A DNA stretch of 64,000 nt from Daphnia carinata. Lineage: Eukaryota > Arthropoda > Branchiopoda > Diplostraca > Daphniidae. Positions 19,880-64,000 of the stretch are shown here, one piece after another. Numbering within the stretch: position 1 is the stretch's first letter; every line of letters starts with the position of its first letter. Made by a program: the position numbers and the translations under genes. The stretch covers positions 58,829 through 122,828 of the forward strand of contig NW_026712501.1 in the NCBI RefSeq assembly GCF_022539665.2, written 5' to 3'. The notes under the pieces were generated by a model, which saw only the letters and a list, made by a program, of their open reading frames with translations, did not search any database and had not been told where the DNA came from.

Positions 19880-22860
19880 ATTTTTATACCTTTGAAGGGG
19901 CCACAGACAGTAGAAGAAGAAAGAGTGACCGAGCTTTCGGAAGCTGTTTAACTCTGGAACATTCTATTTCGTCTAGTCATCTGGTGAAGACCCAATTGAT
20001 GCTACATTATGCACCCAAAAGCTTCAGCAGAATCGTGGAACAGACAACAGATTCTTCTGGAATAGGTAGATATTCCCTATAGGCTGGTTCACTGTACAAT
20101 TATAATTTAAAAAATGATCCTCTAAAATTGGCAGGCTTTTGCACTTACCATTGCAACACTATGGAATTGATTTTTCTCACTGGCTGTTACGAGTTACATG
20201 TGGCAGTGTTGAAATCCGTACGTTGAAACCAGGAGTTCAAGTAGGGTCGCACAAAGTGAGATTCTCACGCGGCCCCGAGGCCTCTTCACCAGCTCTAGAA
20301 CGCCATTTGAAGCTCATGCAAGAGCGTTATCATGACACAGCTACCGTGAATCTACTCGGTCTCTACATGGTCGGTGCAAAAGAAGGGGAAGCTTCACTTA
20401 GTCAACCCTTCCAAGCTGACCAGAAACGCTATTATTATTAATTTAAAAAAAAAAGAGTTTTATAGGAAACTAACGGTCTAGTTTTCATACATAAGTGATG
20501 TAAATTACTTGAGCTCGACTGCACCCCTCGCAGCGGTTGAATGGAGCAGCCTGTTGCGCCCATTAAGGGGTCGGGAGCCGGAAAGCACGTGGAACTTGCT
20601 TTCCATCGTCCGCGCGAATTGTTCAAACGCCATGACCGCAATGCCGTTCCACGTTTGGGGGTTTTAACGGAAGAGATTGTGTCGTGTGAACAGGTAGTGA
20701 TAAACAATTAACAGCAATAGGTACAAAGTGTTTGTTAAATTCACCTTCTTTTATATTTTAGATTATGGTCTGGTGGTTTAACACCAAGGTGGCATTACAC
20801 AATGGAAGTGCAGCTGGATACGGTAGCGGTATCAAATCAAGCAACCTGGGAAGCCAATCGCAAGCTTCTGAGCACGCTTGCTCTTCTTTATGTGACGAAG
20901 TGGTTATCCTTTAGCGATTGGCTGCACTCAATCCAGGCCTTTCTGGAGAAGAACGCGATCTACTTCGTCAACATTTCAGCGAATGGCATGTCAAAGTCAT
21001 TGACAAGGTCACGAAAAGCAAAGGGTTAACAATCTGTGCTACTCATGGCGCACCCCATGTTGCTGGCGGAAATGGTGCCGAACCGTCCACACCTCGTCGT
21101 ACTAGCCAATCATTAAAAGCAGAAGTTGAGGTGTTTACTGGCTTCAAACCTTCAGTTGAAGCTCGTTATCTTAACTGGGACGATTACTCCATTCCCGGTG
21201 TTACTTACACTCAAGGCCACCGTCTTTACCATTGTCCTTTTACCTGCTTTCGACACACAGAGGCTCATGGTCGCTTTCATATCGGCCGTCATCACCAATG
21301 ACCTACCCGTTCACATGCTCCAAAGACGAGCGGTAGTGCAAAGCGATTATGCCCAGGCTATGGACGACATGCGTCACGTGAGGGAAAGGATTGGCTGATT
21401 TCACCCTGCATCACCTCTTGTCCGGCCGAAAAGAGTAATAGATCAAGCGGGCAAATAGAAGCAGCGTTAGCATCGAAGATTTCTGCGAAAATGAAGGCGA
21501 TCCAGCAGTCGAAGCGTTTGAGCCGGCAGTACCTTCAGGTCTGCGGGATCTAACCCGCCAAGACATTGACGATCCGGCTCTGGGCTATGATACCAATGAG
21601 CTGGAAGTTTTGGCGGTGGATAGTTGCACTTTGACAGATAAAGAAAAATCATCATCTGAAGATTTTGATGCTGACTCGGACTGGTTGGGAGTTGATGCAC
21701 GTTTAAAGAATTCACGACTTGAAGCCAGCAGTGGAGTGCTACTCCTGCCTGGATCAGGATTGGTGGCTGGATCTTCACGAGATACTGACGATATGGCCAG
21801 TTTGTCTGCCAGTCCTCGAGAATCTAGAACAATGGGCTTACCAGCAGCTCAAGGTGCCGTGCCACAAGAGCCTTGCGTTGTTACCGTTCCTAACCGGAAC
21901 GGTGGAGTCTTTGGCGAGTTAAACCCACTCGATGATCCACTGGAGATCCTCTTTGCAAGTGCGGAGGGACTTCACGCTCATGGGCATAGTTCCGAAGCTT
22001 GTGAATTGGGCATAGAATTGGCAACAGAACTATTAGCAAATACACCCGATTTGATGGTTGAGTTGCCTCCTGTCATCACGCAGAATGGCAAGAAAATGAA
22101 GACGAATCCTGCTTGTCATCAAATTAGCTTTGGCGGAAAATTGCGACTATTACCATCTTGCCTTCAGGGTAGAAATGTTTGGATTGGAATTGGCACGGCC
22201 ACCTGCTACAACGAAACCATTAGAAGTGAACTGGCTCACCAAGAATCTGAGTTGGTTACACTATTGAAACGAATACCTTTAGGTAATTAAATATTTTTTC
22301 TTTAAAATTGTTCAAGATATTCAATCTATTGTTTTAATTCACAGGTCATCCATAATTGTCGATTGAGTGAGAAAGCTGAAGAATTACCAGATGGCATATT
22401 ACGACCATACCATCATATCACGAAGCATTGGTCACTGTGTCAGGAGCACAGCAAGTTCTTGCTGACGAGACTCTTGGACTCTTTCGCTTCGAAGCAGCCG
22501 TGTCTGCCCTAGGATTTAAGGTAACAATATCGTAAATAAAAATAGTCAAGAAAATCAGCAATGTAATGCATAAAAATCAGGCAAATGTATCGGAGGCGGA
22601 CCATCCTCTGCTCTACTTTGTGAAGTAACGCGTCGTCAACGAGATGATCTCGCTGTCATGTTACTGGTTCATTACAAGGACGACCCAGACAAGCTAGCCA
22701 AAATTATGAAAAGCTACTGGATCGTCAAGTGCATCCGATGGGCATATCCTCCCAACACGTCTTCCAAGACCCATCGAGTTTTTTCTATGCGTGTAGCAAA
22801 AATTTCTATGTCTATGAAGGCTATGACATACCTATGATCGCTCTGTTTTAGTTCTGCACG
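19880..22860 (+). pseudogene. ZSWIM8: ZSWIM8-like host gene fragment, decayed
   Basis: Exon-like pieces with intact splice sites encode parts of ZSWIM8, the substrate receptor of a Cullin-RING ubiquitin ligase (Dora in flies). Recognisable blocks are AALNPGLSGEERDLLRQHFSEWH (20,918-20,985), the 21,610-22,290 exon with ILFASAEGLHAHGHSSEAC, LANTPDL and ESELVTLLKRIPLG, and pieces near 22,450-22,720 matching FEAAVSALGFK, SEADHPLL and YKDDPDKLAKI. Between them are stops and frame changes (for example after GHP near 22,352). The SWIM finger region and the far C-terminus are missing. It is a partial duplicate, not the working gene. A host-gene call is strong because consecutive blocks keep the family order. 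Confidence 0.8.
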
Positions 22861-30272: not shown

Positions 30273-31027
30273 TTAGTAAATCTTATAGCCTTTGCCGTTG
30301 AAAGGGATGTGAACAGCGGCAACAGGGAGCTCATATTCGTGGACGGGGGCGACGGGCAAGTGATCACCTTTGGGCTGGAAACCGGCCTCATCAGCAACCC
30401 AGGTCAAAGTGAACTTCTGACCCTCAGGAGAAATCCAGTAAGAAGATCCTTTGTTGGTGTTGCCTAGGACTTCACCGTACGATTCTTTGCTGTAGGAATC
30501 GTAGGTGACTCCTTGCATCTTCTTCTGGACCTGAGACTCTTCGCGAGTGGTGTAGTCAGACTGGGCATAGCTATGGGTTGAAATAATAAAATTTGCCTTA
30601 TGGTTATCTTTAGTTCTTAAAATGATGAGTATAAAGTATGAAATAGATTCACCTCCATTGGCTGCTGCCATCGAGATTGCGCTCGTCAGATTGGCTGGTG
30701 ATGGTGATACCAGCGTATTTGTTATCCTTGTTGTAGCTGGGAGTAGGGTAAGCTGGTGCGGGGTAGGCTGGTGCAGGGTAGGCTGGTGCAGGATAGGCTG
30801 ATGCAGGGTAGGCCGGTGCGGGGTAGCTTGGAGTAGGGTACTTTGGTGCAGGGTAGCTTGGGGCTGGGTAGCTGGGTGCCTTGTATTCCGGCTTGTAGCT
30901 GGATGGAACAGCGGCAACGACGGCCAAGAAAGCGGCGACGATGAACTGTCAGAAAATGCCGTTTTAAACATAAAATTGATTTTAGCTCAAAATAAGAATA
31001 AAAGATTAAATGCCTTACGAGCTTCAT
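30273..31027 (-). CDS. RR-1 cuticle protein, intact, three exons
   Basis: Exons are 31027-31019 (ATGAAGCTC), 30945-30653 and 30570-30273 (TAA). Introns are 73 and 82 nt with GT/AG ends, and the spliced frame is open for 199 codons. Residues 1-18 form a signal peptide (MKLFIVAAFLAVVAAVPS). A proline/alanine/tyrosine-rich region of SYPAPAYP repeats follows to about residue 72. The extended Rebers-Riddiford RR-1 domain runs from KYAGITITSQSDERN to ADEAGFQPKGDHLP, ending VHIPFNGKGYKIY. RR-1 proteins bind chitin and are usually found in flexible cuticle. It is divergently transcribed with the pseudogene at 31,667. This is the only member in the window with every feature intact. Confidence 0.9.
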
Positions 31028-45199: not shown

Positions 45200-46975
45200 A
45201 ATTTTCGAGAAACCCGCATTAGGGACAGTAGACTAATTACAAAAAGGCATGTTATGCTTATCAAATGAATTTTGTTAACCATTTTATTATTGATTACCAT
45301 CCTAAAGGGTAATGGTTCTATGCTGTCAAGGAACTATTTTTAAATGTTTTTATCCTCATTTTTCCCTTTTTGGTGAGGTATTTCTAAATCACTACTGCAA
45401 TATCAACAATATTAGGAACAATAGATTCAGTTAAGTTTTCTCTACATGGCTATTGAATATTTTTATGAAAATCATGTGAAAATATGCATCTAATCGGTGA
45501 TTGCAGTTTTTTATTTTTTAAATAAGCTCCCGTGATGCTAATTTAGGACAGCATTCTACATACTGAAATGCACACTTTATGCTTTTAATTATTTTTCTTT
45601 CACCATAGCATAATCGTAAGATGTTGATTTGACAACCAAAAGGCTAACGGTTCTATACCGTATGGGTACTATACATATACTTCAATTTCCTTATTTTTGA
45701 ATTTTTTCTTATTTGATGAGATATTTTGAAATCACTAAGAACACCTTAAACTAAAGCAATATCATCAATACTGATATCAATAGATTGGTTTAAGTTACCT
45801 CTACATGGCTGTTGAATATTTTATGAAAATCACGTGAAAATATTTATCTAATGGGGGATTGTAATTCTTATTTTTTCTACACAAGCTTCCGTGACGCTAA
45901 TTTGGGACAGCAAACTACATACAACAAGACATGTTATGCTTTTTAACAATATTTCCTCAACCATGGCATAGTTGTAAGACGTACGATTGCCACCGTAAAC
46001 GATAATGGTTCTATACTGTCAAGGCGCTATTTTCAAGTTTCGTTTTCCTCATTCCCTCATTTTTCCCTTTTTGGTGAGGTATTTCTAAATCACTACTACA
46101 ATATCAACAATATTAGGAACAATAGATTCAGTTAAGTTTTCTCTACATGGCTATTGAATGTTTTATGAAAATCATACGAAAATATGCATCTAATCCGTAA
46201 TTGCAAATTTTTATGTTTTTTACATAAGGTCTCAAGACGCCAATTTGGGACAGCAGACTACATACTATATGACATATTAGGCTTTTCAACTTTGTGTCGT
46301 TCGAGATGGCATACTCGAAAGAAATTGGATTGCCAAGCTATAGGAGAATGGTTCCATACTGTCTGGGCACTATAATTTCTTTTTCCAAATTTTTGAACTA
46401 TCCCCTTTTTTATGAGATATTTTTAAATCGCTAAAGATACCTTAAACTAAAACAATACCAAAAATATTAGGACCAATAGATTCTTTGATGTTTTCTCTAT
46501 ATGGCTGTTGAATATTTTGTGAAAATCATGTGACAATATTTATCTAATGGGGGATAGCAATTCTTATATTTCTTTACATTAGCTCCCATGACGCTAATTT
46601 GGGACAGCACGCCACGTACTAAATATTAAGTACTAAGTATTATATTTTATTGCTTCAATATGTAAGCAGTGGTATAGTCGTAGGACTTTGGATTGTCAAC
46701 CCGAAGATTAATGGTTCAACTCAAATTGTAGAATATGAACAGATTGCTTTGCCTAACTGTTTCATTTTGTGAGATACTCTTACATATTCCATGACACAGA
46801 ATGACAGACTTGTGTAAGCTTCCTCTACATGGATGTTGCATAACTTCCATGTATGCAATATTCATGCTAAGCGACAATATTCATGTAATCGGTAATGGCG
46901 AATTGTATCATTCATAAAAATTACGATGGCAGTGGCTCTGTCGTAAGATGTTGGAATGGGAACCAAAGGATTGAA
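45200..46975. repeat. ~350-bp tandem repeat array with tRNA-like boxes
   Basis: About five diverged units of 320-360 bp are marked by GGGACAG at 45,223, 45,546 (variant), 45,903, 46,245 and 46,601. Each has a tRNA-like segment (for example GTGGTATAGTCGTAGGAC then ATGGTTCAACTC at 46,670-46,720). Each then has GTGAGATATTT, CTCTACATGGCTGTTGAATA and ATGAAAATCA(C/T)GTGAAAAT blocks. A further inverted copy is at 57,490-57,904. The A- and B-box-like parts suggest that each unit grew from a tRNA gene and its flanks. Confidence 0.85.
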
Positions 46976-47247
46976 TAATTGATTCTTAATGCGGCAAATA
47001 TTTATTATTTTCCATTATTGGTTTTTTAATCACACTTTGTGTGATATTATGGAATCGCAATGAATGTTTGTAGGAAAACCTCAGAAAAATAATAATATGA
47101 ATTATAAAGAAACAGGCCTTATGGATCCACGAATCGCAAACACTACATTGGTTGCAATCATCCTTTGTACCTGTGCTTTTACATAGCATTCAGAGAACAG
47201 GTAGCCACTTTGTTGTACCCAAAGTTGTTGTACCCAAAGCCGAAAAT

Positions 47248-49350
47248 ATGGAAATTGGCCACATTTGGGAACACGGCCCTAACCCAATGGTAGACGCATC
47301 GAAACCTGAACGGCAGAAGAGTGAACGGCCCACACTTCCCGAAAACGATCTCAAGAAGAAACGTGGGAAGAGAAAGGCGGCCCACACGAAGTTATTGACA
47401 CAACTCAGAAAGGCTGTGGAAGACCACAAGATGGGAGCCATCAGATTGAAGAAATTGCAAGTAGCAGCATGGCGTGACGAATTGATTCGTATTTACGACG
47501 AAGTCAAAGCAATTTACAACCAATATACAGAAAGTATATCCGACCTCACTGAGCAGCAACGTCAAGCATGACAAGTGGGAATCAGACTTCGAAACAGACC
47601 ACGTTGAAGTTATCAAATTCGCAAGTCGCAACGCCACTTCCTCAAATCAGTCCGTCAGCTCGATCGGGACATCAGCTTCGGACATCACATGTAGTACCAC
47701 ATTATCTGGAAAGAGGCGTACCAACGTTAAACCAGCCAGCCTTCTCCAACAATTAACCCAAGGGGAGTTGGAGACTGAAGCACAGATGCTGAAGCTGGAG
47801 GTGAAGTTGGAAACAGCAAGGGCTCAGATGGAGGCAAACACAACCTCCATCACAGAAACCCTCAACAAGGCGTTAAGGAGCATGAGCGAACAGCTGAGTA
47901 AGCTCATTGATGGTTCAAGAGTCACGTCCCAAGACATAGCGACCAACAACGCGCTAATCAGAGAAGCACACCACACGTTGGACGGGTTAGATAAAAAAAT
48001 TGATGCAGTCAAGGTGGAGTTAAACGCTAAAATCGAAGACCTTCGAACGGAAGTAGACGTCATGAAAGTTCAACCACGAACGATTCAAGATCAATGACCT
48101 CCTGGGCGATCACCATTCTTACCAACTCGTCAAGACGTTTCTACCCTGTCACCCCTCCGAACGATGGAAGATGCAGTACGACATCACAGAAGATTGTTCG
48201 ACGCCGATGCACCTCTACGAGACCCACGGCAAGGGACGATGGCCACGATGACGTCCAGTTGCAACCGTATGGATCACGACGGAGATGAGCACTCTGAACG
48301 TTCTCATACCCATAGTCATCGTCCTCACAGCAGCTGTTGCAGCCGTCTACAACCTCCAAACTTCAAGATCCAGCCGTTCGACGTTAACCCGAAGAGCTAC
48401 GCGCGATTCAAGGCCAAATTCCAGGCCTTGTATGAAGAGTATGAAGATTCTCCGGTACTTCTTTTTTTGTTGGAGGAGCTACTAGCCGAAGATGTACGAA
48501 ACGAAATCGGTGAATGTCTTACCGATGGAACGATGTACTCCGTGGTGTGGGAACGTTTGGATGCGGTGTACGGTCGTACGGAAATTATGGATCAGACGTA
48601 CCTCGACGACCTTTTACAGGTCCCGCCATTGAAGAGCCTAGATGCTGCCAGCCTCAAGACCTTCGCAAACTGTCTTCATGGAGCAGTAGCTACGCTCTCA
48701 TAGTCGAAGTACATCCACGAGCTGTACAGCCGCACAACTTTGATGGCCCTTGAAGCAAAATTGACGTCCTACCTCAAAGATAAGTGGAACGAGAAACGTA
48801 AAAAGACAGGAGTAGAACTGAACGTTCTAGACTTAGACAACTGCGTAACGTTAAAATCCATGAGCAAGCAACATGGAAAAATGTATTCGAGTCTTTACCT
48901 ACGTCGACGTCCAAAGGTGTAAAGTTCGACGAAAGGAAGCCCGTCAAGAGACCCAGCTTCCCACACATGTCGACCATTGGACACGTATCGACGATGGAAG
49001 GTTCGAAAGTAGCGGCGTCAACATCTTCAGCAACCATGCCTCCAAGGAGCCGATCAACATCGGGGAAGATGCAAGCCGAGAAGACGGAACGGTGGAAATG
49101 CTTTGTATGGAACGGTAGGAACCACCATCTTTCAACCTGCACCGTGTTCATGTCTCTCACGCCCACGAAAAGGGCTGAGAAAGTATTTAAGTCCGGAAGA
49201 TGTCTGTTATGTCTTACGGGTAAACATGAACGCAAGGAGTGTCCCAGGGACGTCAGCTGTAATATCGCTGATTGTACTGGAAGCCGCCACCACACCTTGC
49301 TTCATGGATCCGAATTCACCCCATTGAAGAGGCTAGCTGATCCAACTGCT
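47248..49350 (+). pseudogene. BEL Gag, frameshifted
   Basis: A basic, coiled-coil-rich amino part (47,248-48,097, with one frame change near 47,570) is followed by the DUF1759-type region with PNFKIQPFDVNPKSYARF and DDLLQVPPLKSLDA (48,345-48,700). A TAG lies at about 48,702. A knuckle pair follows near 49,100-49,310. The first knuckle has CFVW, lacking its second Cys. The second, CLLCLTGKHERKEC, is complete and followed by CNIADC...HHTLLHG. Gag would form particles; this copy cannot be read through. Confidence 0.8.
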
Positions 49351-49454
49351 CCATCAGCGCCACTTTCGACGGCATTCCTTGGGACCTTGACCCATTTGGA
49401 AACAGTAAAACGACGTGTACGTTTCAAGATCGTACCGGTTCGTGTTGGAGCTGG

Positions 49455-51070
49455 CAAAAGGGGGGCGACACTTTCGGTTTCCTGGATACCGGAAGCGACA
49501 CCACGCTGATTCGGAGCGACTTAGCAAAGAAGTTGGGACTCGTTGGGCCATCGAAATGCATCAACGTTGTCTCGTATGACGGAGACACGCCTAACGTTAC
49601 GGCTTCCGTAGTAAACTTCATCCTAACATCTCGTGATGGTAATAGCCAGTTTGAAGTTAAACACGCTTACGCCGTCGACAATTTGAAGGTGACGCCGAAT
49701 TCACCGATCGACCCTCGACAGTTGGAGTCATGGACGCACCTACGTGGTATTGCCGTCCCGACCGTTCAAGAAGAGGACGTGACCGTGCTGATAGGAATCG
49801 ACGTCACAGAGGCCCATGATCATGTAGCTTCCATCAAGCCGCCGGCTGGAACGACTGGGCCCATCGCCTTCAAGACGCCGTTTGGCTGGTGTTTGGGCGG
49901 ACAAACGAGCCCGCCACAAAACGGACGCCCGTTCATCGCTCATCTGGGCACCGTGGAACGTCCCGAAGACCTAAATGAGCTGGTGAAGAAGTTCTGGCAA
50001 CTTGAGGCCAACGAAGGAGAAATAGAACCACCCGTTCTATCTGAGGATGACCTACGTGGAAAATGCATCCTCGAGTCTACCGTAAAACCTATTGGTAACC
50101 AGTACCAAGTCGGCTTAATGTGGAAAGCCGACGACGTAAATCTCCCAAACCATCGGGCATCTGCATTGAAGAGACTCTACGCCCTCGAACGACGTTTTCA
50201 TCAAGACGCGGAGTTTGCCCAACGGTACGATGCAGTGGTCAAGGAGTACCTCGGCTTAAAACATGCCCGACTCTTAACGACGCAGGAAGCCCAGAAGGAG
50301 ACAAACAAGACGTGGTATCTACCACAACACGGGGTCGTGAGCCCTTCCAGCTCATCGACCAAAGTTCGTGTCGTATTCGATGGAGCTGCTGAGTTTGGTG
50401 GCACATCGATTAATCAAAACCTGCTTCGGGGCCCTAATTTACTCGTTAGCCTGCTTGGTGTGCTCATCCGCTTCCGCCGTAACCTTGTACCAGTCGGAGC
50501 GGATATTGAGAAAATGTTCCACCAAGTGAAAGTCCCGGAAGAAGACCAGACCGCCTTCAGATTTTTCTACCGGACGCCTGGCAGTATTTCAGCTCCGTTA
50601 ACGTACCAGATGACGGTGCACGTATTTGGAGCAATATCCTCCCCGACGAGCTGCATCTTCGCCCTCAACAGGACGGCCGATGACTACCGCAGCCAGTTTC
50701 CAGATGTAGCTGATAGCGTTCGACGGAATTTCTACGTCGATAATTATCTCGACTCCTTCAACTCCGAAGACGAGGTTATCAAAGGGTCCCGACAAATGAA
50801 ATCCCTTCTTCAGCTAGGGGGATTCAACTTGACCAAATGGACGTCGTCATCCAGAACGGTGATAGCAGCTCTACGAGAATTCGGCCTCGCGTCACCAACA
50901 CTGGATTTGGACTTGGAGAAACTCCCCGTCGAAAGAACCCTTGGAGTAATGTGGGACAGCGAGCGAGATATGCTGACTTTCAAGATTCGGAAGCCGCCGA
51001 AAAACGTGACCCTCACGAAGCGAGTCTTCCTAAGCATCATCTCTAGCGTCTATGACCCGTTGGGGCTTGT
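49455..51070 (+). pseudogene. BEL protease and reverse transcriptase
   Basis: The frame contains the retropepsin active site FLDTGSDTTLIRSDLA (49,480-49,530) and a long RT. RT shows VRVVFDGAAEF, GADIEKMFHQVKV, a catalytic box FYVDNYLDS (YVDN, where BEL elements usually have YVDD) and TLGVMWDSERD. It ends SVYDPLGLVA at about 51,075, where the frame breaks before RNase H. Asn in place of the second catalytic Asp may reduce activity. Confidence 0.88.
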
Positions 51071-51894
51071 TGCATCTTCTTGATGAAATCATTACTCCAA
51101 GGCATCTGGACCAACGAAGAACGGATCGGCTGAGACGACGTCGTACCGGAAACATTGAGTCAACGTTTCTATTGCTGGTACGGCCATCTGGAAAATTTGG
51201 AGTCGTTATCAGTGCCGAGATGCTTTCGTTTCAAACGTGGACACGTGTTTCAAGACGTTGGACTCAACAGCCCCTCCAGGTCTTCACGGATGCAAGCTCC
51301 AAAGGGTACGGAGCAGTAGCCTACTTCCGCACTGTTTTCGAGGACCAGTCCGTCAACGTGTCCTTCGTCATGGCGAAAACACACGTCACGCCGGTGAAAG
51401 GTCTCACGATTCCACGTTTGGAGCTACAAGCTGCCGTGGAAGGTCTCAACATCGCCCTCACGATTTGCCGTGAACTAGAAATCAATCTGCGCCAAGTAAC
51501 CTTCCACTCGGATTCACAAACGGTGTTGCGGTGGATCCATTCCAAATCTTGTCGGTTTGAATTCTTCGTCAACTACCGCATTGGAAAAATACTCCGAAAC
51601 ACGGCTCATCGACAATGGCGTCATGTTGCCGGAGATTCAAACCCAGCGGACCTCTGCAGTAGGGGTATCGACCCAAAGGACGTCAACGAATTGGTCTACT
51701 TCCATCGAGGACCTTCGTTCCAGAACCTAGACCCCTCAGAGTGGTACACTTGGGAAGAGATTACGGAGCCAGAAGAACGGGATGTAAACGTGATTCGCGT
51801 CTTAGCAGTCAAGATAGAAGATGAGAATCATGTCATCGACCGATGCGTCGAACGTTTTTCCAGTCTGTTGAGACTTCAACGAGTGCTGGCCTAG
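51052..51894 (+). pseudogene. BEL RNase H segment
   Basis: Open for 280 codons. From about residue 78 it has VFTDASSKGYGAVAY, the PRLELQAAV block, FHSDSQTVLRWI and the DSNPADLCSRG end, which supply the four acidic residues of RNase H. The first 70 codons are out of frame relative to the family. A TAG at 51,892 separates it from integrase. Confidence 0.82.
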
Positions 51895-52097
51895 AGTAAA
51901 AGATTTGTCAACAACGCTAGAGCAAAACTACGTGATGAAAAACCAATTGTCGGCGAGCTAACTGTAGAAGAAATGGTAACATCGTTGACGAAATGCATCG
52001 TGCGCGCGCAAGAATTGGCTTTCGCTGAAGAATTCTACGCCCTTCGCAGAATCTGGAATTACCACTCAGATCAAAACTTCACACCTTCAAGCCCTTC

Positions 52098-53387
52098 TTG
52101 GATGAAGCTGGACAGATGCGAATTGGCGGACGTATACTTCAAGCGCCGATCGACTATTCAGCAAAGCACCCCATACTTCTACCAGCATCTCAACTTTTGA
52201 CGAAAAGGATAATTTGGGATCACCACGTTAGACACATGCACGTCAAGACCGAAAGATTGCTGACAGACTTACGTTCAAGCTTTTGGATACTTTCCGGACG
52301 CAAAGTGGTAAAATCTGTCATCAACAACTGTTGGCCTTGCAAGCGGACGTCGGCGAAACCTAATCCTCCGTTGATGGCTTCACTACCAATACATCGTCTA
52401 ACACCCCATCTGCCTCCATTCACGTACACAGGGATCGACTACTTCTGGCCTTTGACGGTACGAGTTGGTGGACGAGGACGAAGGCATGAAAAACGCTGGG
52501 TCAGCCTATTCACGTGCTTCACCACCCGAGCAGTTCAGCTGGAAATGGCCAACGGGCTCAGTATGGAGGAGTTCTTACTCTGCTTCTCCCGTTTTGTTAG
52601 CCTACGTGGAAAACCGAAGGTCGTCTACAGCGGCAATGGGACAAACTTTGTCGCCGCCGAGCACGAGTTGCGACAAGCCCTAGAAGAACTTGTTACCAAA
52701 CACCAAGAACTTCAAACAGTAATGGCTTGTCAAGAAATAGACTGGCACTTCTCTCCACCCCATGGACCCCATTTCGGTAGTGTTTGGGAAAGGATTGTAC
52801 AATCCTGCAAGCGGACAATGAAGACCAGCATCGGCAATTGCCTAGTTACGGATCAAGTGCTACGAACCGTAATCACTGAAGTAGCAGCTTTACTAAACGC
52901 TCGGCCGTTAACACATCTTAGTATGGACCCAGAAGACCCGGATCCGTTAACGCCAAATCACTTTCTATACGGTGGAGCTCGGCCATACTTGCCTCTTCAA
53001 TTGGCCGACGTGGAAGACTTGAACGTAACCAACAAGCAGTTTCTGCAAAGTCAAGCTATCCTCCAACATTTTTGGGATAGATGGCTACGTGAATACGTTC
53101 CACACCTAACAGAAAGGAGAAAATGGCAAGAAAACAGACCTAACGTCGCCGTGGGAGATTTAGTGCTTGCAGTTGAACCAAATACTTTACGTGGGCAGTG
53201 GCCGATGGGAAAAGTGTTGGGAATTATTCCCAGTGCTACAGATAATGTTGTTCGAGTCGTAAAAGTCAAGCTCAGCAACCACCCAAAACCATGTATTCGG
53301 CCGGTGGCCAAATTATGTATCATGGTTTCAGCAAAGGAACAACAAGTTTACGCAAAAGAAGAAAAAAAGGAATCTTCCACAGCGTAA
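52098..53387 (+). pseudogene. BEL integrase with a substituted catalytic residue
   Basis: 429 codons, open. The zinc-binding HHCC part (HHVRHMHVKTERLL...CWPC), core start GIDYFWPL, VVYSGNGTNF and PPHGPHFGSVWERIV are present, then a C-terminal DUF5641-like domain (HFWDRWLREYVPHLTERRKW, VAVGDLVLAVEPN, WPMGKVLGI). The family motif at the second catalytic Asp is SDNGTNF; here it reads SGNGTNF, so one of the three DDE acids is Gly. Although full length, it should be unable to catalyse strand transfer. Confidence 0.88.
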
Positions 53388-56020: not shown

Positions 56021-56768
56021 ATGAAATACCATTTTATTGTTTGAATAATATACTTAACATCATGTTTGAACCAATCTTTGTTTTGGAACTCATGTCTTAC
56101 AAAAGCCTTCGAATCCCGTTTCCTGGGACTTTTCACCAACAATATATTTAGTTTCCGATGCAACAAATATTTAACCTTCAACTAGGATGGGAAGCGATAC
56201 TTTGAAGAAGTATCGGTATCGTGGTACCGAATTTTCGGAAAAAAATCGCGATACTGAATCCATCCATTGAATTCATCACTGAAAATTTTAAAGAAACGCA
56301 AACCACTTCTTGTCTGTACGTGCATAGGGCCACATACGTCTGAATGAATTTGTTGTCTGACTTCATAGGCTCTTGTCCTACCGACACGAAAAGGGGATCT
56401 CTGCCTTTTTCCGGATACACAACTAAGACAGGGCTACGTTGGAGTGATGTCGTTGGCTGGTAGTATGAAGCCATCTACTGCATGATTGGATGACATTTCC
56501 TAGATTACAATAAAGAGTTTTTGTTATAAGATGGAAAGTTTATCTGATTTGATGCATGGTCATGTAAATTAAAACAAACTACATCGATACGACAGTAATT
56601 GAATATCTTATTAAACAAGGAAATCGTCTTTCTCCTTCAGTGTGCGCATTTTCAATTGATTTAGCTTAGGATGATTATTTAACTAATTTATATCCAAATA
56701 TCTCGAAATAATTGCATGCCCTTTCTAAACTCAATCTAATAAATGATACCAATGCCTCTTAAGTTTCA

Positions 56769-56840
56769 AGGGGGCACCCAGGTTTGAACTGAGGACCCTA
56801 CGATCTGCAGTCGTATGCTCTACCACTGAGCTATACCCCC
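56769..56840 (-). tRNA. tRNA-Cys(GCA), intact
   Basis: 72 nt, with a perfect anticodon stem TACGA/TCGTA around CTGCAGA and acceptor GGGGGTA/TGCCCCC (one G-U). It is the best of three Cys copies in the window. Confidence 0.92.
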
Positions 56841-57097
56841 ATTACACAACATTGGTCAGAAAAAAAAATTCCTGTTAGAAAATTAAAAATAAATAACAAA
56901 TTTCGTCATTTTATGAGTATTCGACAGGCAACATTGCGATGGTCAGGTTAACTGATGTTTTATGGCATTGGAGTTTCCTGTACGCTTTAATTATTCAGTC
57001 ATCTTTCTGTTTCGCTTTAGTATACAGTATTAGAATAGAGAGTATTTGTTCCAAAGTGGCAAGTTAATCTGATTTGATGCTAAGTCTTGTAAATTAA

Positions 57098-57489
57098 AAT
57101 AAACAACATCCACACGACAGTAATTGAATTTCTTTTTAAACAAGGAAATCGTTTCTCATTTAAAGTAAATAATTCTCCTTCAGCGTGCGCATTTTCAATT
57201 GACTTCGCTTAGGATGATTATTTAACTAATTTATATACAAATATCTCGGAATAATTGCATGCCCTTTCAAATCTCAATCAATGAAATGATACCAATGCCT
57301 CTTATGTTTCAAGTGGGCACCCATGTTTGAACTGAGGACCCTACGATCTGCAGTCGTATGCTCTACCACTGAGCTATACCCCTATTGCACAACAATGGTC
57401 AGAAAAAAAATTACTGTTACAAAATTAAAAATAAGTAACAAATTTCGTTATTTGATGAGGATTCGACAGGCAGCATTGCGATGGTCAGC
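57098..57489. repeat. Extra tRNA-Cys tandem unit beyond the right arm
   Basis: The segment continues the ~543-bp tandem unit that carries tRNA-Cys. Landmarks such as GAATAATTGCATGCCCTTTC repeat from 56,705. The left arm lacks this extra unit because it is cut by the DIRS junction. Confidence 0.75.
57312..57383 (-). tRNA. tRNA-Cys(GCA) pseudogene
   Basis: Anticodon arm is perfect, but the acceptor (AGGGGTA/TGCCCAC) has lost two pairs and the T-stem one (C to A). Likely inactive. Confidence 0.7.
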
Positions 57490-57904
57490 TTAAATAGCTG
57501 CAATTACGGATTAGATGCATATTTTCGTATGATTTTCATAAAACATTCAATAGCCATGTAGAGAAAACTTAAACGAATCTATTGATCCTACTATTATTGA
57601 TAATGTAGTAGTGTAAGGTATCTATAATGATTTACAAATATCTCACAAAAAAGGGAAAAATGAGGGAATGAGGAAAACAAAACTTTAAAATAGCGCCTTG
57701 ACAGTATAGAACCATTATCGTTTACGGTGGCAATCGTACGTCTTACAACTATGCCATGGTTGAGAAAATATTGTTAAAAAGCATAACATGTCTTGTTGTA
57801 TGTAGTTTGCTGTCCCAAATTAGCGTCACGGAAGCTTGTGTAGAAAAAATAAGAATTACAATCCCCCATTAGATAAATATTTTCACGTGATTTTCATAAA
57901 ATAT
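57490..57904. repeat. Inverted copy of the ~350-bp repeat
   Basis: Reverse complement of the unit around 45,840-46,200, including the tRNA-like segment (GGTGGCAATCGTACG...ACTATGCCATGG). It is cut at 57,904 by the LTR of the next element. Confidence 0.8.
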
Positions 57905-58287
57905 TGTCACACTGGGCTTTACTTTTTCAATGAATTGTATTGAATTTTAATAAGAAATACAAGACATAGCAGAAATGAGGAATAACTACACTTTACTTTA
58001 CTTTGAATGAGAAGAGAACTGTAAGAGAACTTGAAGAGAACTTTGAAGAACTATCAGAACTCTGAGGAACTGATCTTAGAGCTAAAAATGTAGGGGCTTT
58101 TATACCCTCGTGAAGAATATACGCCCCATCTCTAGGGTTACATAAATTCTAGGGATAACTATCTTTTATCAAATTATCTGCGTGTTGCAGCATCTTTTCA
58201 GGAGAAGCTGCATTGTGCGCAATTTGATCGTTGGTTGTTACGTCTTTTCAGAAATGACAACCACGTCACTATTTTCCCCTCGCGACA
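57905..58287 (-). repeat. LTR of outer gypsy-type element (A)
   Basis: 383 bp with TG (57905) and CA (58286-58287) ends. It is followed on the plus strand by the complement of a PPT, so it is the 3' LTR of a minus-strand element. On the minus strand it has a TATAAAAG (near 58,098) and a downstream CT-rich start region. It interrupts the 350-bp repeat at ATAAAATATT. Confidence 0.85.
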
Positions 58288-58304
58288 GGTCCCCCTTCTT
58301 CAAG
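58288..58304 (-). promoter_or_regulatory. Polypurine tract of element A
   Basis: The minus strand reads GAAGAAGGGGGACC directly before the LTR. Confidence 0.8.
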
Positions 58305-58417: not shown

Positions 58418-58640
58418 AACTATAGTAATGAGAAAGCGTACGATAGCGCAAGGTCGCTTTAGAGAAGTAGAGGAACAACTATAGTAAAAGACAAACGTAC
58501 GATAAAGCGCGGTCGCTTTAGAGAGGTAAAAGAGCTACTACAGTAGAAATCAAACATACGATAAAGCGCGGTCGCTTTAGAGAGGTAAAGGGGTAACGAC
58601 AGTAGAAGTCAGCCATGCGATGAAGCGTGGTCAATGTGCT
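58418..58640. repeat. 59-bp tandem repeat, 3.8 copies
   Basis: Units start at 58,418, 58,477, 58,536 and 58,595. The core is CGATAAAGCGCGGTCGCTTT with AACTATAGTA at the unit start. It lies between the PPT of element A and the plus-strand gene and could act as its promoter or enhancer. Confidence 0.9.
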
Positions 58641-58799: not shown

Positions 58800-59282
58800 A
58801 TGTTTACTCTTCAGTCTGTTCTTGAAAATCTGCGTCGTATTGAATATGCGTTGGTGTGTTTTGTTGAGGAAACTTTTTCCACTGGTAGAAGCCGTTTTAG
58901 TCGTTTGACACAAGCGGATCGAGCCCACTTTTTAGAGATTTTGGGGCGAGCACATCATTCCGGTGCACGTTTAGATTATTCAATCTCCATCAGTGCGCCT
59001 TGGGTGGATGACTTCTATTACAGGTAAGTAGTCTTCTTTACTTGGTTTTTTTAGTTCTACACTAATGTTCTTTTCCTCTTTTTTAGTACATATCCTGGTT
59101 ATGCCGGATATAGAGATTATTTTATGCATTTTCATGCACGTCTGCTGTGGTGGTTTCAGTCCGACCAGGATATTTATCATCCTACCTCTCGCCGCTCTGA
59201 CTTCTACAGAGAAGTCACACAAGCAGAGATGCAAGCCAGGGAAGACGCTCGGCTTGTTCGGCTTGTAATGTTTAACTTGTAA
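58800..59282 (+). CDS. Antisense gene of LTR element A (two exons)
   Basis: Exons 58800-59023 and 59087-59282 with a 63-nt GTAAGT...TTTTAG intron give 139 codons. The product is hydrophilic, with no signal peptide or membrane segment. Exon 1 starts MFTLQSVLENLRRIEYALV, and exon 2 encodes TYPGYAGYRDYF, then LLWWFQSDQDIYH. It aligns end to end with the plus-strand gene at 59,990, and both have a phase-2 intron at the same site. It lies opposite to the retroelement. The last residues (VMFNL) are encoded by the start of LTR-B, so the 3' end is probably cut by that insertion. Function unknown; I recognise no family. Confidence 0.75.
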
Positions 59283-59681
59283 ATGACTTTCAACTCAGCT
59301 TACTAATTACTAAGTGTATTTTCACAAGACTAACAAGACTAATCACAGGTGTAATGTAAGATTCTCTAAAACTCTACTACACTTCAACGCTCTGGACACA
59401 GACACACAATGCACTATAACACACTAAACTCAGACCCCGAGCCCCCTTCTTGTCACAGCTTTTATCAGTTAATATGAGGTCACTCTTGACGTCAATGATC
59501 ACGTGAAGACGAACTGATCGTAGAGGTGAAGAGCTGACAGATACTGGTTTGGCGTGGGAAGGCTCCGTGAGGATGAAGAACTGTTTGATACCAGTTCGCC
59601 GTGGAATCATCCAAGGCTGGAATCTATTAATTAGCTAAGCTAACTAATTGGTGGCGTTCTTCGGTATATGTCCTCATCACA
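59264..59681 (-). repeat. LTR of inner gypsy-type element (B)
   Basis: The right edge is secure: CACA at 59,678-59,681 followed by the complement of a PPT. On the minus strand it starts TGTGATGAGG and contains GATAAAAGC (TATA) and GTGTTATAGTGCATTG. The left edge is uncertain: TGTAATG at 59,264 (418 bp) or 59,350 (332 bp). The first fits best because it interrupts the antisense gene of element A. Confidence 0.75.
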
Positions 59682-59695
59682 TTCCTCCCCTTTTT
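59682..59695 (-). promoter_or_regulatory. Polypurine tract of element B
   Basis: The minus strand reads AAAAAGGGGAGGAA directly before the TG of the LTR. Confidence 0.82.
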
Positions 59696-59989
59696 ACAGA
59701 AGTTGCCTTCGGGGTTACAGGGTTGGAGAATATATTTATGTATACGGAAGTTATAATGAAACAGATAGGTCTACAAAATTTCTAATTCTAATTTATGCAT
59801 TTGCTTCTTTTCTTTCTTCCGTAGGGATTACAATTGCTAAACATTTCTTGTTAGTAAGAGAGTGGAATAGTGGAGGGGATAGGTAAGGGTTATTTTTTTT
59901 TTTTTTTTTTTGATGCGAACCTTATAATTGTTGCTTTTTGTTCCGGTGTGTTTCATTCGTTTCTTGCCCTTCGTCGAGCTCCCTTGTGC

Positions 59990-60518
59990 ATGATGGAGTT
60001 TGATTTTACATGCGTTGTGTCTCATCGTGCTGCCGTTGATACTGCTTTGTGGATTTTCGAAGTTATAGCGTATCACAAGCCTCATTTGCTCTTCCGAAGA
60101 TTTCTTCCCACTGATCGAGAACTGTTCTTCAATTGCTATCGGCCATCGATGAGTGTTGAAAATTGTCCTCCTCTTGACTTCGGGTTCCGACGAGTCAGTT
60201 CCACCGACCGCTATTATGTGTAAGTCGCAAATTGGTTCTTTTCTTAGCATTCCATTTGACTTGTTTTTCTTTTCCAGTCAGTTTCCAGGTTATGCTCGCT
60301 ACCGCGACATTTACCCGATCCGGTTTGCACGATTCCTCTGGTGGCTCGAGTCTGGTGAGGATATCTATCACCGCAACTGTCGTTCATCGCTCTTCTTCAA
60401 TGAACAATTGCAAGAAGAATCCCATCACTCAGTGGCAATGCAGAACGTACACCGTCTTCTCCGTCGGCTTTTGATTGGCACCGATTTTATGCTGGTTAGT
60501 TCCTTGTATTTCCAGTAG
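59990..60518 (+). CDS. Antisense gene of LTR element B (two exons)
   Basis: Exons 59990-60219 and 60278-60518 with a 58-nt GTAAGT...TTCCAG intron give 156 codons. Exon 1 encodes EFDFTCVVSHRAAVDTALWI, then RRFLPTDRELFF; exon 2 encodes QFPGYARYRDIYPIRFARFL, then WWLESGEDIYH. The alignment with the gene of element A is colinear. Shared positions are the AL-x-x-F helix, a conserved T-x-(A)DR block, YY before the intron, PGYA-YRD, WW and DIYH. Residues differ at well over half the sites while the frame and intron are kept, which implies selection. No signal peptide, zinc finger or transmembrane segment is visible. It lies between env and the PPT, on the opposite strand. Confidence 0.78.
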
Positions 60519-60708: not shown

Positions 60709-62730
60709 TCATTTTTGGGGTGCAATGAGGCATCCATCATTCCAACAGAGTCCCTTACCCGGAATGATTTGTGTATCATTATGGATATGTGACAGCATGG
60801 GAATTTCTTGCTCGTGATTGTTAGTGTTATTTTTCTTTTTACACAAATTGAAGATTGTAGCAAATGGTATAAATGCAATGCAGACATATCCAATCAAGAT
60901 TGTTACAGCTATTACACTCACTGCTAGTATTCCATACTTAAATATGGAAACCCAATTGGATATATCCCAGAAATCAACCTGGGCCTTGTTATCTAAGACT
61001 AATCCAGAAAGTGAATTAGTATTAGATAGTTGTACTCTACCAATTAATTCCGTTAAAACATTTAATTGTTCTACGTTATTTGGCTCATACATCGAATGAT
61101 GCTGAGGCAAATAATCGTACGTTTTTAGAGGTAATTCCTCAAATGCTGTAATCAATTTTAGTTTTACCACATGAATTGATGGTTCTTGGAGTTTCCATTC
61201 TCCATTTATCCATGTATAGGTTTTATCGTTGAAATTTACATATTGACCGTTCCAGAAACAATCCTGGAAAGGATGAAGTGACCAACCATCCTTTCCAACA
61301 GTGAAATTGGTTTTCGGGTCTGCCTGAAAAAATGGCTGATAGCCGCACTGTGTTTGTACAGCGGCCATTTTTACAGGTACAATTTCACATTTCTGTAAAA
61401 TTAAACTTTTGCCGTTTCCGGTTATTCTACTACATGTATCTAGATTTAGTGCACGGGCTGCAAGCAGTCCATTTGTTTGTGCTAAAACCATAGCTTGATT
61501 ACGCTGTAGTGAAGTAATTTTGCAATATAATTGACGGACTTCGTTGGCCAATTGTGATTCGTGTTTGATCGCCTGCCCTTCAATGTACTGGCGATTTTCA
61601 ATGTCTAGCAACGTCCTAACGCTATCTGTTAATTGAGTTTTTGTCTCGTTGCCTTTGGTGTTCAAAACTTCACCAGAATCATTTAGTTCAATTAACCTTT
61701 CTTGTCTTCTTTTGTTTCTCTCTTCCCTTCTATTCGAAATGGTAGTCACCTCTTCTATTCTGTCCATTGGAAAAAATGGGGTTGCAAGGGTTCTTTGGAA
61801 AATCCATTCTTGCAACTTTTGTGAGGAATCGCAGGGAAGTGCTCGCACCGTCTTGTCTTCGTAAAATGGAACTAGACAAAATGGATTGTCCTTTAAGGCA
61901 AATTGCCTGTCAATCTCATTGTAGTTCCATAACATTCTATTACTAAATTCACTGTCGCATGACTGCGCCGTCATCGGCGTAACACAAGTGTTGGTTGTGA
62001 GAATTCTTAGTTTCCCATTTACGTAGCCGAAATCCTGCTTAGGGTAACCTTCGATAGAGCTACTTTGGTTACAAAACAGTAACGTGAGGGTCTGTTGTTC
62101 CGATATAGTTAGACAGTAATCCAAATTGGTGGTGGGCTGAATTTTACCGTATAAAGTTGGTGGATTAAACGGTATGTGGTCACTCATTTTGTCGAACTTT
62201 CGTGTGCGATTCCTGTCCCATCTAGTTACTTGTGGCCCTCTTTGTTCTTGTAATTCCCCATCTATTGCCTCATTGGATGATTCTAGAATTTCTAGTAACC
62301 ATATTTGGTTCACGTTACCATTCTCACACGGTGTAACAGTTACAGGATAATCCAGTGTTATGTTTACGGTTAAGCAATTACCTGTGTGAGCTTGAATCAT
62401 ATGGAAAGGAACTAATCCAAATGTCATCGGGTTGGGTTCTAATGACCATACATCCGTCGGGTTATTTAGTTCATCTAAACTACTACCGCATTTCTTGACT
62501 CCCGTGTTGTTTTCTGTAAATTGGTGAATGCAATGCTCGAGATAGCTTTGCATTACCATTCCATTAGCAAGAAATTTGAAAGCTTGACCGTTGGTTATCA
62601 CCTTCTGCGTTTCTTTTTCAATTGACAGGGTGGTGTCGAATGCACAAGTTGGGGTCGAGAATTTTCCACTGCGTGGCATGTACGCCAAACAACGACTAGG
62701 ATCGCTAGCTAACATTAATAATCCTATCAC
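60709..62730 (-). CDS. Envelope-like membrane glycoprotein (second env ORF)
   Basis: 673 codons, unbroken. A short hydrophobic start may be a signal peptide. The ectodomain is Cys-rich with several N-x-S/T sites. A membrane segment lies near residues 598-627, followed by a basic, roughly 45-residue tail, the architecture of a class I-like viral surface protein. A strongly basic stretch around residue 335 could be a furin-type processing site. Q-x-W motifs near residues 141 and 308, each after a Cys, resemble ricin-B (beta-trefoil) lectin repeats, which would suit glycan binding. The ORF starts in the ATGA that ends the upstream ORF. I cannot name the viral family of origin. Role: probably cell entry or spread of the element. 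Confidence 0.8.
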   Translation of the reverse strand: MIGLLMLASDPSRCLAYMPRSGKFSTPTCAFDTTLSIEKETQKVITNGQAFKFLANGMVMQSYLEHCIHQFTENNTGVKKCGSSLDELNNPTDVWSLEPNPMTFGLVPFHMIQAHTGNCLTVNITLDYPVTVTPCENGNVNQIWLLEILESSNEAIDGELQEQRGPQVTRWDRNRTRKFDKMSDHIPFNPPTLYGKIQPTTNLDYCLTISEQQTLTLLFCNQSSSIEGYPKQDFGYVNGKLRILTTNTCVTPMTAQSCDSEFSNRMLWNYNEIDRQFALKDNPFCLVPFYEDKTVRALPCDSSQKLQEWIFQRTLATPFFPMDRIEEVTTISNRREERNKRRQERLIELNDSGEVLNTKGNETKTQLTDSVRTLLDIENRQYIEGQAIKHESQLANEVRQLYCKITSLQRNQAMVLAQTNGLLAARALNLDTCSRITGNGKSLILQKCEIVPVKMAAVQTQCGYQPFFQADPKTNFTVGKDGWSLHPFQDCFWNGQYVNFNDKTYTWINGEWKLQEPSIHVVKLKLITAFEELPLKTYDYLPQHHSMYEPNNVEQLNVLTELIGRVQLSNTNSLSGLVLDNKAQVDFWDISNWVSIFKYGILAVSVIAVTILIGYVCIAFIPFATIFNLCKKKNNTNNHEQEIPMLSHIHNDTQIIPGKGLCWNDGCLIAPQK

Positions 62731-63557
62731 TTCTCTATCATAGCTTCTTTTCTGTCGCTAGGGGTTTCTATAATATCTATGTAGGAATCGGGTAACCCGA
62801 TTACCGGATAGACGGTTATGTTCGTGCAGATTTGCGTTTTGTTAGCAGATATGATAAATTCTAACTGAGCTGCATGATCTTCTATCCTATTTTGTTTCTT
62901 ACTTTTCGTTAAGTTACCTCTACCTTGAAATACCGAATTTATTTCACAGGTGGGCTCTTTTGCATCTGGTGCTTTCCAAACGATCGTTAGTTCATTATGA
63001 TTCGAAAATTCTGCCTTACTAGAATTCGCTATTATACCAAACGGTGACTTTACTGGGCAATCGTGACAATCCTTTGATAACTGAACTATTTGAGTTACAC
63101 AATTCTTAGTTGTGTAGACCTGTGTTGTCATCCAGTGACCTTCTCCCTCAGGCTCCTGGAGGTATTTAAATGTTTTTCCGTCCTTTACCATCGGGCTATT
63201 CACGCATGTATTTGGATACTGTGCCGTGTTCCAGCATTCATTAGCACTAACTTTTAAAATTTGCTTCTTAAAAATAGTGTCATGACTTAAAAGGAAATTA
63301 GTGGATATTTCTTTGGTTGATAACCACTGGGTGCATGCGTACCCTTCCCATGTTATGGGTTCTTTGTTTTTGGTTAGGAATCGGTAATTGATTTTAGTTG
63401 GAATTTCTACTGGTTCAGGGTGTGAACAGTAGTCGGGATCGTCTAAATCTAAAATACCTTTTATTACTGGTTGTGAGCAGTTGCAGGTGTCGATGGTTAT
63501 TGAGTGGGCTATTCCTACAGCTATAATGAAGACGAGAGTTGCGATAACGTTCCTCAT
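62727..63557 (-). CDS. Secreted Cys-rich envelope-like protein (first env ORF)
   Basis: 276 codons, unbroken. Residues 1-18 form a clear signal peptide (hydrophobic core LVFIIAVGIA). The rest is Cys-rich with several N-glycosylation sites and no membrane anchor. It starts only 6 nt after the pol stop and ends in TGA overlapping the next ATG (ATGA, 4 nt). It may pair with the membrane-anchored product of the next ORF, as separate subunits of one surface complex. Alternatively the two ORFs are one env gene split by a frameshift, but both sides have convincing starts. Confidence 0.78.
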   Translation of the reverse strand: MRNVIATLVFIIAVGIAHSITIDTCNCSQPVIKGILDLDDPDYCSHPEPVEIPTKINYRFLTKNKEPITWEGYACTQWLSTKEISTNFLLSHDTIFKKQILKVSANECWNTAQYPNTCVNSPMVKDGKTFKYLQEPEGEGHWMTTQVYTTKNCVTQIVQLSKDCHDCPVKSPFGIIANSSKAEFSNHNELTIVWKAPDAKEPTCEINSVFQGRGNLTKSKKQNRIEDHAAQLEFIISANKTQICTNITVYPVIGLPDSYIDIIETPSDRKEAMIEK

Positions 63558-63563
63558 CTGTAA

Positions 63564-64000
63564 TTACATTTCCGTAATGAGTCTTTGTGGCTGTTTGATT
63601 GCTTGTCTTAGCGATCTTCTAACAGGTATTCCGATATCATCCTGCCTTTTCCGTCTCACTCTAGGTTGCTTAGTTTGTGCTTTACCGCTTTCGGTCGGTA
63701 ACTGTGCTGTTTCTTGCCGATTGCTATCTTCCCCTTCTGTTGCTTGTCTTACAGCGGTTGCTGCTGTCTCTCCTTGACTTTGGATACTCAATTCCCTTTC
63801 CCTACTTTCAATTTCTATCTCACTCTGTGTTTCTCTTTCTTCGCTTTCTGATTCCCTCCTAGGGTTACGTTCATTAACGCTGTTACCTTCTTCCCTTTCT
63901 TTAGCTACGTTTTCCGCGTCTTCCTTGCTTTTCCATTTCTTGAGGCGATTCACATGCACAACCATAGTATGGTTTTCTGTTGTTCTCCTGATTAGGTAAT
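63564..64000 (-). CDS. Integrase C-terminal end (pol), partial
   Basis: The frame is open to the window edge. It reads LIRRTTENHTMVVHVNRLKKW, the gypsy integrase C-terminal pattern around VVHVNRLK. A long Glu/Arg/Ser-rich hydrophilic tail and a basic end (RVRRKRQDDIGIPVRRSLR) follow. Catalytic domains are off the edge. The stop is 6 nt upstream of the first env ATG, so env is probably expressed from a spliced or downstream-initiated RNA. Confidence 0.85.
   Translation of the reverse strand, partial: YLIRRTTENHTMVVHVNRLKKWKSKEDAENVAKEREEGNSVNERNPRRESESEERETQSEIEIESRERELSIQSQGETAATAVRQATEGEDSNRQETAQLPTESGKAQTKQPRVRRKRQDDIGIPVRRSLRQAIKQPQRLITEM

Follow-up and report, generated by a model that had tools for sequence, protein, structure and literature searches.

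A probable family of spliced antisense accessory genes in envelope-bearing Ty3/gypsy elements of Daphnia

Two small spliced genes, here called gene A and gene B, were found on the plus strand of a 64,000-nucleotide stretch of Daphnia carinata DNA (the window, meaning the whole stretch analysed), each of them inside a transposable element that runs on the minus strand. Sequence comparisons suggest, with a probability of about 0.85, that both belong to one family of antisense accessory genes in env-bearing Ty3/gypsy elements of Daphnia, a figure that applies to what the gene is (its position, splice sites, selection and carriers) and not to its function. The sequences on which this assignment is based cover two reverse transcriptase (RT) types, different envelopes and the absence of the gene in some sublineages. 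The original prediction, that of a conserved spliced antisense coding gene of env-bearing LTR elements, was supported by the genome-wide position of the gene, by its splice sites, by selection and by homologues in other Daphnia.

Results

Two nested elements, each with a gene on the opposite strand

The features of the two elements, in positions of the window, are the following.

57905..58287, minus strand: 3' LTR of element A, TG...CA, from LTR-sized matches, with the ends placed by eye
58288..58301, minus strand: polypurine tract of element A, read on the minus strand (from the sequence, by eye)
58419..58632, plus strand: tandem repeats spaced 59 bp apart, lying between LTR A and gene A
58800..59023, plus strand: gene A exon 1, antisense to element A
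59024..59086, plus strand: gene A intron, 63 nt, GTAAGT...TTTTTTAG, phase 2
59087..59263, plus strand: gene A exon 2, truncated by the insertion of element B
59260..59263: target site duplication of element B, GGCT, 4 bp (second copy seen on contig C37)
59264..59681, minus strand: 3' LTR of element B, 418 bp, TG...CA
59682..59695, minus strand: polypurine tract of element B, read on the minus strand (from the sequence, by eye)
59990..60219, plus strand: gene B exon 1, antisense to element B
60220..60277, plus strand: gene B intron, 58 nt, GTAAGT...TTTTCCAG, phase 2
60278..60518, plus strand: gene B exon 2 and stop
60709..62730, minus strand: 3' part of the element B env, with a ricin-B-lectin match (PF00652), its frame interrupted in the window copy
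62727..63557, minus strand: 5' part of the element B env
63564..63965, minus strand: C-terminal end of the element B pol (integrase side), resembling by eye the end of the integrase frame of the B-type copy L086

Both spliced frames were found where they had been predicted, from 58800 for gene A and at 59990-60219/60278-60518 for gene B, with exons that join in phase 2, and their proteins are homologous as claimed (blastp E 8e-15, 50% over 52 aa). It also held that both genes lie inside minus-strand gypsy elements, with the 3' LTR of A at 57905-58287 and that of B at 59264-59681 next to a polypurine tract. The predicted protein lengths fared unevenly, as the 156 aa of the gene B product stood, whereas the 139 aa given for gene A did not, its stop being supplied by the element B LTR. 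Because this LTR starts at 59264, within gene A, gene A is a truncated copy; its final 19 bases, stop included, are LTR sequence of element B, and the end of its product at 139 aa is, as judged from the sequence, an artefact. A-type relatives without the interruption have products of 159-174 aa. Contig C37 has the same insertion as the window, and there the GGCT target duplication was found on both flanks of element B, with an apparent remainder of gene A beyond it.

The region of LTR A (window 57903-58287, query 14-398) has LTR-sized matches, including a second copy on contig C54, where an A-type copy carries RT, env and the antisense gene between LTR matches at 22102-22484 and 30304-30998. 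For element B, the homology shared by its copies mostly begins at 59264 (range 59257-59272 in most), and LTR pairs flank other copies, such as C37:6333-6750 and 16976-17393 with gene B between them. An independent D. carinata gene model (P0001, uncharacterized LOC130697633) encodes a 156-aa protein with 97% identity to the product of spliced gene B. The env of element B is split into two pieces in the window, with open frames of 951 aa in other copies, and the end of the 64-kb window is the end of its contig (C49). The carriers were assigned to Ty3/gypsy from a gypsy-type RT, RNase H and integrase, together with TG...CA LTRs, the polypurine tract and, for B, the 4-bp GGCT duplication; RVT_1, RT_RNaseH, Integrase_H2C2 and rve domains were detected in L086.

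Elsewhere in the window, plus-strand frames at 47152-53387 match RVT_1, Integrase_H2C2 and DUF5641, which we take to be consistent with a BEL/Pao element. Blocks of inverted and direct repeats at 45354-46624 and 56504-57905, up to 98% complementary and around 11.5 kb apart, are perhaps one repeat family flanking the region.

Place of the gene beside env across the genome

Exon 2 of gene B has at least 138 matches in the 108-Mb genome. Among the matches listed, 107 of the 138 have an env match within 3 kb, and 106 of these 107, spread over three env groups, lie on the strand opposite to env and 3' of it, which is the antisense placement that had been set as a check. The single exception (C4:9130063) is on the same strand as env, 2.3 kb off. 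A weak env fragment on the same strand as the gene (E 9e-5) was also seen at L038. The binomial P is around 7e-31 for strand alone and assumes independent copies, when in fact they are related by descent, in such a way that copy numbers do not equal independent events.

The env groups differ in their domains. The A-type env matches PF12259 (Baculo_F) with an E of 4.9e-13, the B-type env of the window has the ricin-B-lectin match and no PF12259 match, and the C-type env, around 36-41% identical to the B-type, reaches PF12259 with an E of 2e-4, under the curated cut-off. Counted from env and among the matches listed, the gene was found at 36 of 47 merged A-type loci of at least 55% identity, always antisense on the 3' side, with none at 11; at the more distant F-env loci listed, no gene match was detected within 3 kb at any of 52. 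The listed B-type loci, merged at the same identity, carry it at 26 of 31, all antisense, with none at 5, and the more distant B-type env loci at 5 of 29, again all antisense. For the 119 merged C-type loci listed, the gene is antisense at 41, on the same strand at 1 and absent within 3 kb at 77. These env searches scored the best 109 of 250 (A-type), 66 of 417 (B-type) and 148 of 420 (C-type) candidates, and the copy counts are lower bounds because only the best candidates were scored. The C-type search gave 154 matches, 150 of them listed, from which 127 were kept and 23 dropped as repeats of B-type loci.

A host gene family that is carried by the elements, or neighbours them, by chance would fit the other 31 of the 138 matches listed, at which the three env queries gave no match within 3 kb, and also the existence of gene models in databases. 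We consider it highly implausible, given the shared orientation and place of the 106 matches, the location of genes within LTR pairs and the fact that at least 9 of the 31 env-less matches show other element remains. Env pieces are present at five of the env-less matches (L005, L024, L025, L036 and L037, two of them judged by eye), and an A-type LTR adjoins four (C8:639844, C8:1351240, C5:7475280 and C9:9592127).

A conserved intron in the antisense gene

The single short phase-2 intron after Tyr-Tyr, with GTAAGT donors, that had been described for the two window genes is indeed present in both and recurs across the family. In 43 of 53 distinct neighbourhoods the sequence fits a GT..AG intron in phase 2 that follows two aromatic residues, and in 35 of those 43 the donor is GTAAGT, GTGAGT or GTAAGC. 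Its length is 57-67 nt across the family, bar one 47-nt case of the 43 (L067), which was judged not credible. In three diverged pairs the intron identity is 49%, 58% and 35%, against 72-77%, 74-78% and 53-61% in the flanking exons, and three other pairs give a less clear picture, with intron identities of 73%, 85% and 77% against exon identities of 79% and 91%, 88% and 85%, and 52% and 80%, respectively.

A profile search of public proteins gave 16 relatives, 13 in D. magna, one in D. sinensis and one in D. carinata, so that homologues were found in other Daphnia. By eye, and in protein models alone, Tyr-Tyr is joined directly to the exon-2 block in 8 of the 13 D. magna models and in that of D. 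sinensis, P0013 reads through the apparent intron, and P0016 ends as expected of a read past the donor.

Downstream of the gene, an AATAAA follows the stop at 25-31 nt in four of the five A-type copies tested; within 260 nt of the stop none was detected in the fifth of them, nor in any of the three B-type, two intermediate and two C-type copies tested. The sequence upstream of the gene may be conserved, as judged by eye, and might hold a 5' UTR intron.

Selection on the protein

The prediction that selection acts on the protein was checked by dN/dS (NG86), which gave 0.14-0.41 across the listed pairs with dS below 1.5, for example 0.17 for L003/L008 (dS 1.17) and 0.23 for L009/L026 (dS 0.97). 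When the same substitutions were placed randomly, all seven pairs gave more amino-acid changes than observed (P at most 0.003), and a stop arose in 86-99% of trials, the copies having been chosen as intact. Third codon positions vary most in 8 of 8 pairs examined, and the antisense-gene frame is the only one free of stops in the copies of those eight pairs, both counts applying to copies chosen for an intact frame. These data indicate that the protein is under purifying selection.

That the frames are decayed or open by chance, and were over-interpreted by eye, is a practically negligible explanation. Among the exon-2 matches listed, 19 of 138 carry stops, and no intact spliced frame was found at L005, L006, L007, L011, L013, L024, L025, L033 and L038, as decay would have it; however, the other 119 of 138 are open, random substitution so often yields a stop in the intact copies chosen, and dN/dS is well under 1 in the measured pairs.

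We regard it as very unlikely that the function lies in the antisense RNA itself, through dsRNA or promoter interference, with the protein being incidental. Non-coding antisense transcripts have been described in some retroelements, and, according to the part of the source consulted, those of micropia in Drosophila hydei have no protein-coding capacity (PMC7264820). Micropia would be alike in having antisense transcription from an LTR element, in an insect, but this is non-coding, unlike the Daphnia gene. Here codon-level constraint is found and the frame is kept in diverged copies (among intact copies chosen), and splice signals are retained while intron bodies diverge, both of which speak against this reading.

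Carrier lineages and absence of the gene

The A-type RT is 42% identical to that of B and 62% to the RT of an F-env element without gene match, so that the gene is found in two well-separated lineages and is missing from a nearer relative of A. The C-type integrase, read in part, is 46% identical to that of B. Either an old gene often lost or a gene moving between lineages would fit; the choice between vertical inheritance and transfer was dropped, as loss and module exchange fit alike.

Absence is visible within the C-type. In L083 and L084 the gene interval is missing, while both flanks can still be aligned to the gene-bearing L066; a third gene-less C-type piece, L085, was left out, as a masked stretch in it is followed by other sequence. 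An open env frame of more than 1000 aa was found in 14 of 32 gene-less and in 1 of 22 gene-bearing copies among the 54 best C-type rows, and the median open env frame was 821 against 522.5 (P 0.0065, with copies that are non-independent). Because the gene-less copies are the more intact ones among these 54, the gene is dispensable for C-type amplification. L083 and L084 compared with L066 make a natural set of gene-minus and gene-plus copies. A 413-aa ankyrin-repeat frame was also seen in L083 (1238-2479), in sense after env (Ank_2 E 4e-34) and interrupted in L084, which, as an accessory gene, is unusual in a gypsy element.

The product and its possible role

The family would consist of compact genes opposite pol and env, located between env and the 3' LTR, with their own start codon, phase-2 intron and stop, and a transcript 3' end that is likely marked by AATAAA in A-type copies. 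Their products, of around 130-175 aa, are predicted to be soluble and mostly helical, and no strongly hydrophobic stretch was detected in six proteins checked. The fold search suggested with the prediction came back empty, as no known fold or domain was matched. In Pfam scans, the two window proteins had no match up to an E of 10 and 10 members of the family gave only DUF3119, in one of them (E 0.19); the bZIP domain and the TRP28 domain (PF04195) were absent from all of these scans.

An intron on the antisense strand would not be spliced from the sense genomic RNA and would survive retrotransposition, whereas one on the sense strand would vanish once spliced genomic RNA is reverse transcribed. 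Because the intron is antisense, the only source of the protein would be integrated DNA, transcribed by Pol II in the antisense direction.

For such a protein the antisense genes of deltaretroviruses are a possible model. In the part of the source consulted, HTLV HBZ and its counterparts APH-2, -3 and -4 are described as antisense genes at the 3' end of an env-bearing provirus that encode small proteins and are spliced, several of which damp viral transcription (PMC10186651); the Daphnia gene is alike in these traits of position, size and splicing, the last being here splice sites only. On the other hand, neither a bZIP nor a sequence relation to HBZ/APH was found in it, its carrier is Ty3/gypsy and its host a crustacean. 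We tentatively suggest, at less than even odds, that the product could act as an HBZ/APH-like regulator in cells with an integrated copy, tuning, and most likely damping, sense expression or the fate of the element in the host cell. Regulation is put forward here by analogy, because neither bZIP nor another known domain was found.

Sense-strand accessory proteins of vertebrate retroviruses counter host defences, and the same gene might do so here, against small-RNA silencing or another restriction, instead of regulating the element. This is a somewhat unlikely reading. It would suit a small diverging protein that is missing from many related elements and present with different envelopes and RTs, and the low lysine content (20 observed against 49 expected from codon composition over 17 related copies) would suit work near ubiquitin ligases; against it, no domain or fold was matched, and the lysine scarcity comes largely from the A-poor antisense strand, in copies that are non-independent. 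As a sign of ubiquitin evasion it was consequently set aside, being explained mostly by base composition and leaving a mere hint.

Discussion

An antisense regulator of the element, proposed above by analogy with HBZ/APH, also has a parallel in plants. The gypsy aORF-3R genes (Grande gene23, RIRE2, and Retand with TRP28, PF04195) are likewise, in the consulted parts of the sources, antisense coding genes placed between pol and the 3' LTR and conserved over a lineage, with a regulatory role proposed (PMC7264820, PMC11963269). They differ in having plant hosts and a TRP28 domain that is unmatched in Daphnia, where the gene has a conserved intron and is found with two envelope types.

Sharing of accessory genes between unlike retroelement lineages is described for ORF3 of bdelloid rotifer LTR elements, whose types in the part of the source covered are GDSL, DEDDy, env-like and others, with no antisense gene reported there (PMC5408684). 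As bdelloid ORF3 shows such sharing (PMC5408684), transfer of the Daphnia gene between lineages is conceivable.

The A-type element has a gypsy-type RT and a Baculo_F env (PF12259) in common with insect errantiviruses. Errantiviruses such as gypsy and ZAM bear a baculovirus-F-like env, and we know of no antisense accessory gene in them; gene-less F-env relatives are present in the Daphnia genome too. The claim that no such gene is on record in arthropod env-bearing elements agrees with searches of open-licence papers, judged from listings and passages, in which no antisense protein gene was found in arthropod LTR elements, and the word antisense is absent from the main text of a D. pulex LTR survey (PMC2996953). 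Antisense accessory genes are already known as a kind, being established in deltaretroviruses and in plant gypsy elements, and what appears new is the protein family, the conserved intron and the setting in env-bearing gypsy elements of an animal.

A joint reading of all these points, which we think improbable as a whole, would be that a spliced antisense gene, with a product without recognised fold, is common to two deep lineages of arthropod env-bearing Ty3/gypsy elements that differ in envelope, and moved between them as a module, that its intron confines the protein to cells with an integrated copy, where it would be a self-limiting or superinfection factor, and that C-type elements that lost it then expanded intact.

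The presence of gene-plus and gene-minus copies within one genome is a ready comparison, and through the intron argument expression from integrated DNA alone can be tested cleanly. If true, a conserved spliced case in animal Ty3/gypsy elements would show a repeated origin of antisense accessory genes and would make Daphnia, which is tractable in the laboratory, a place to study their roles.
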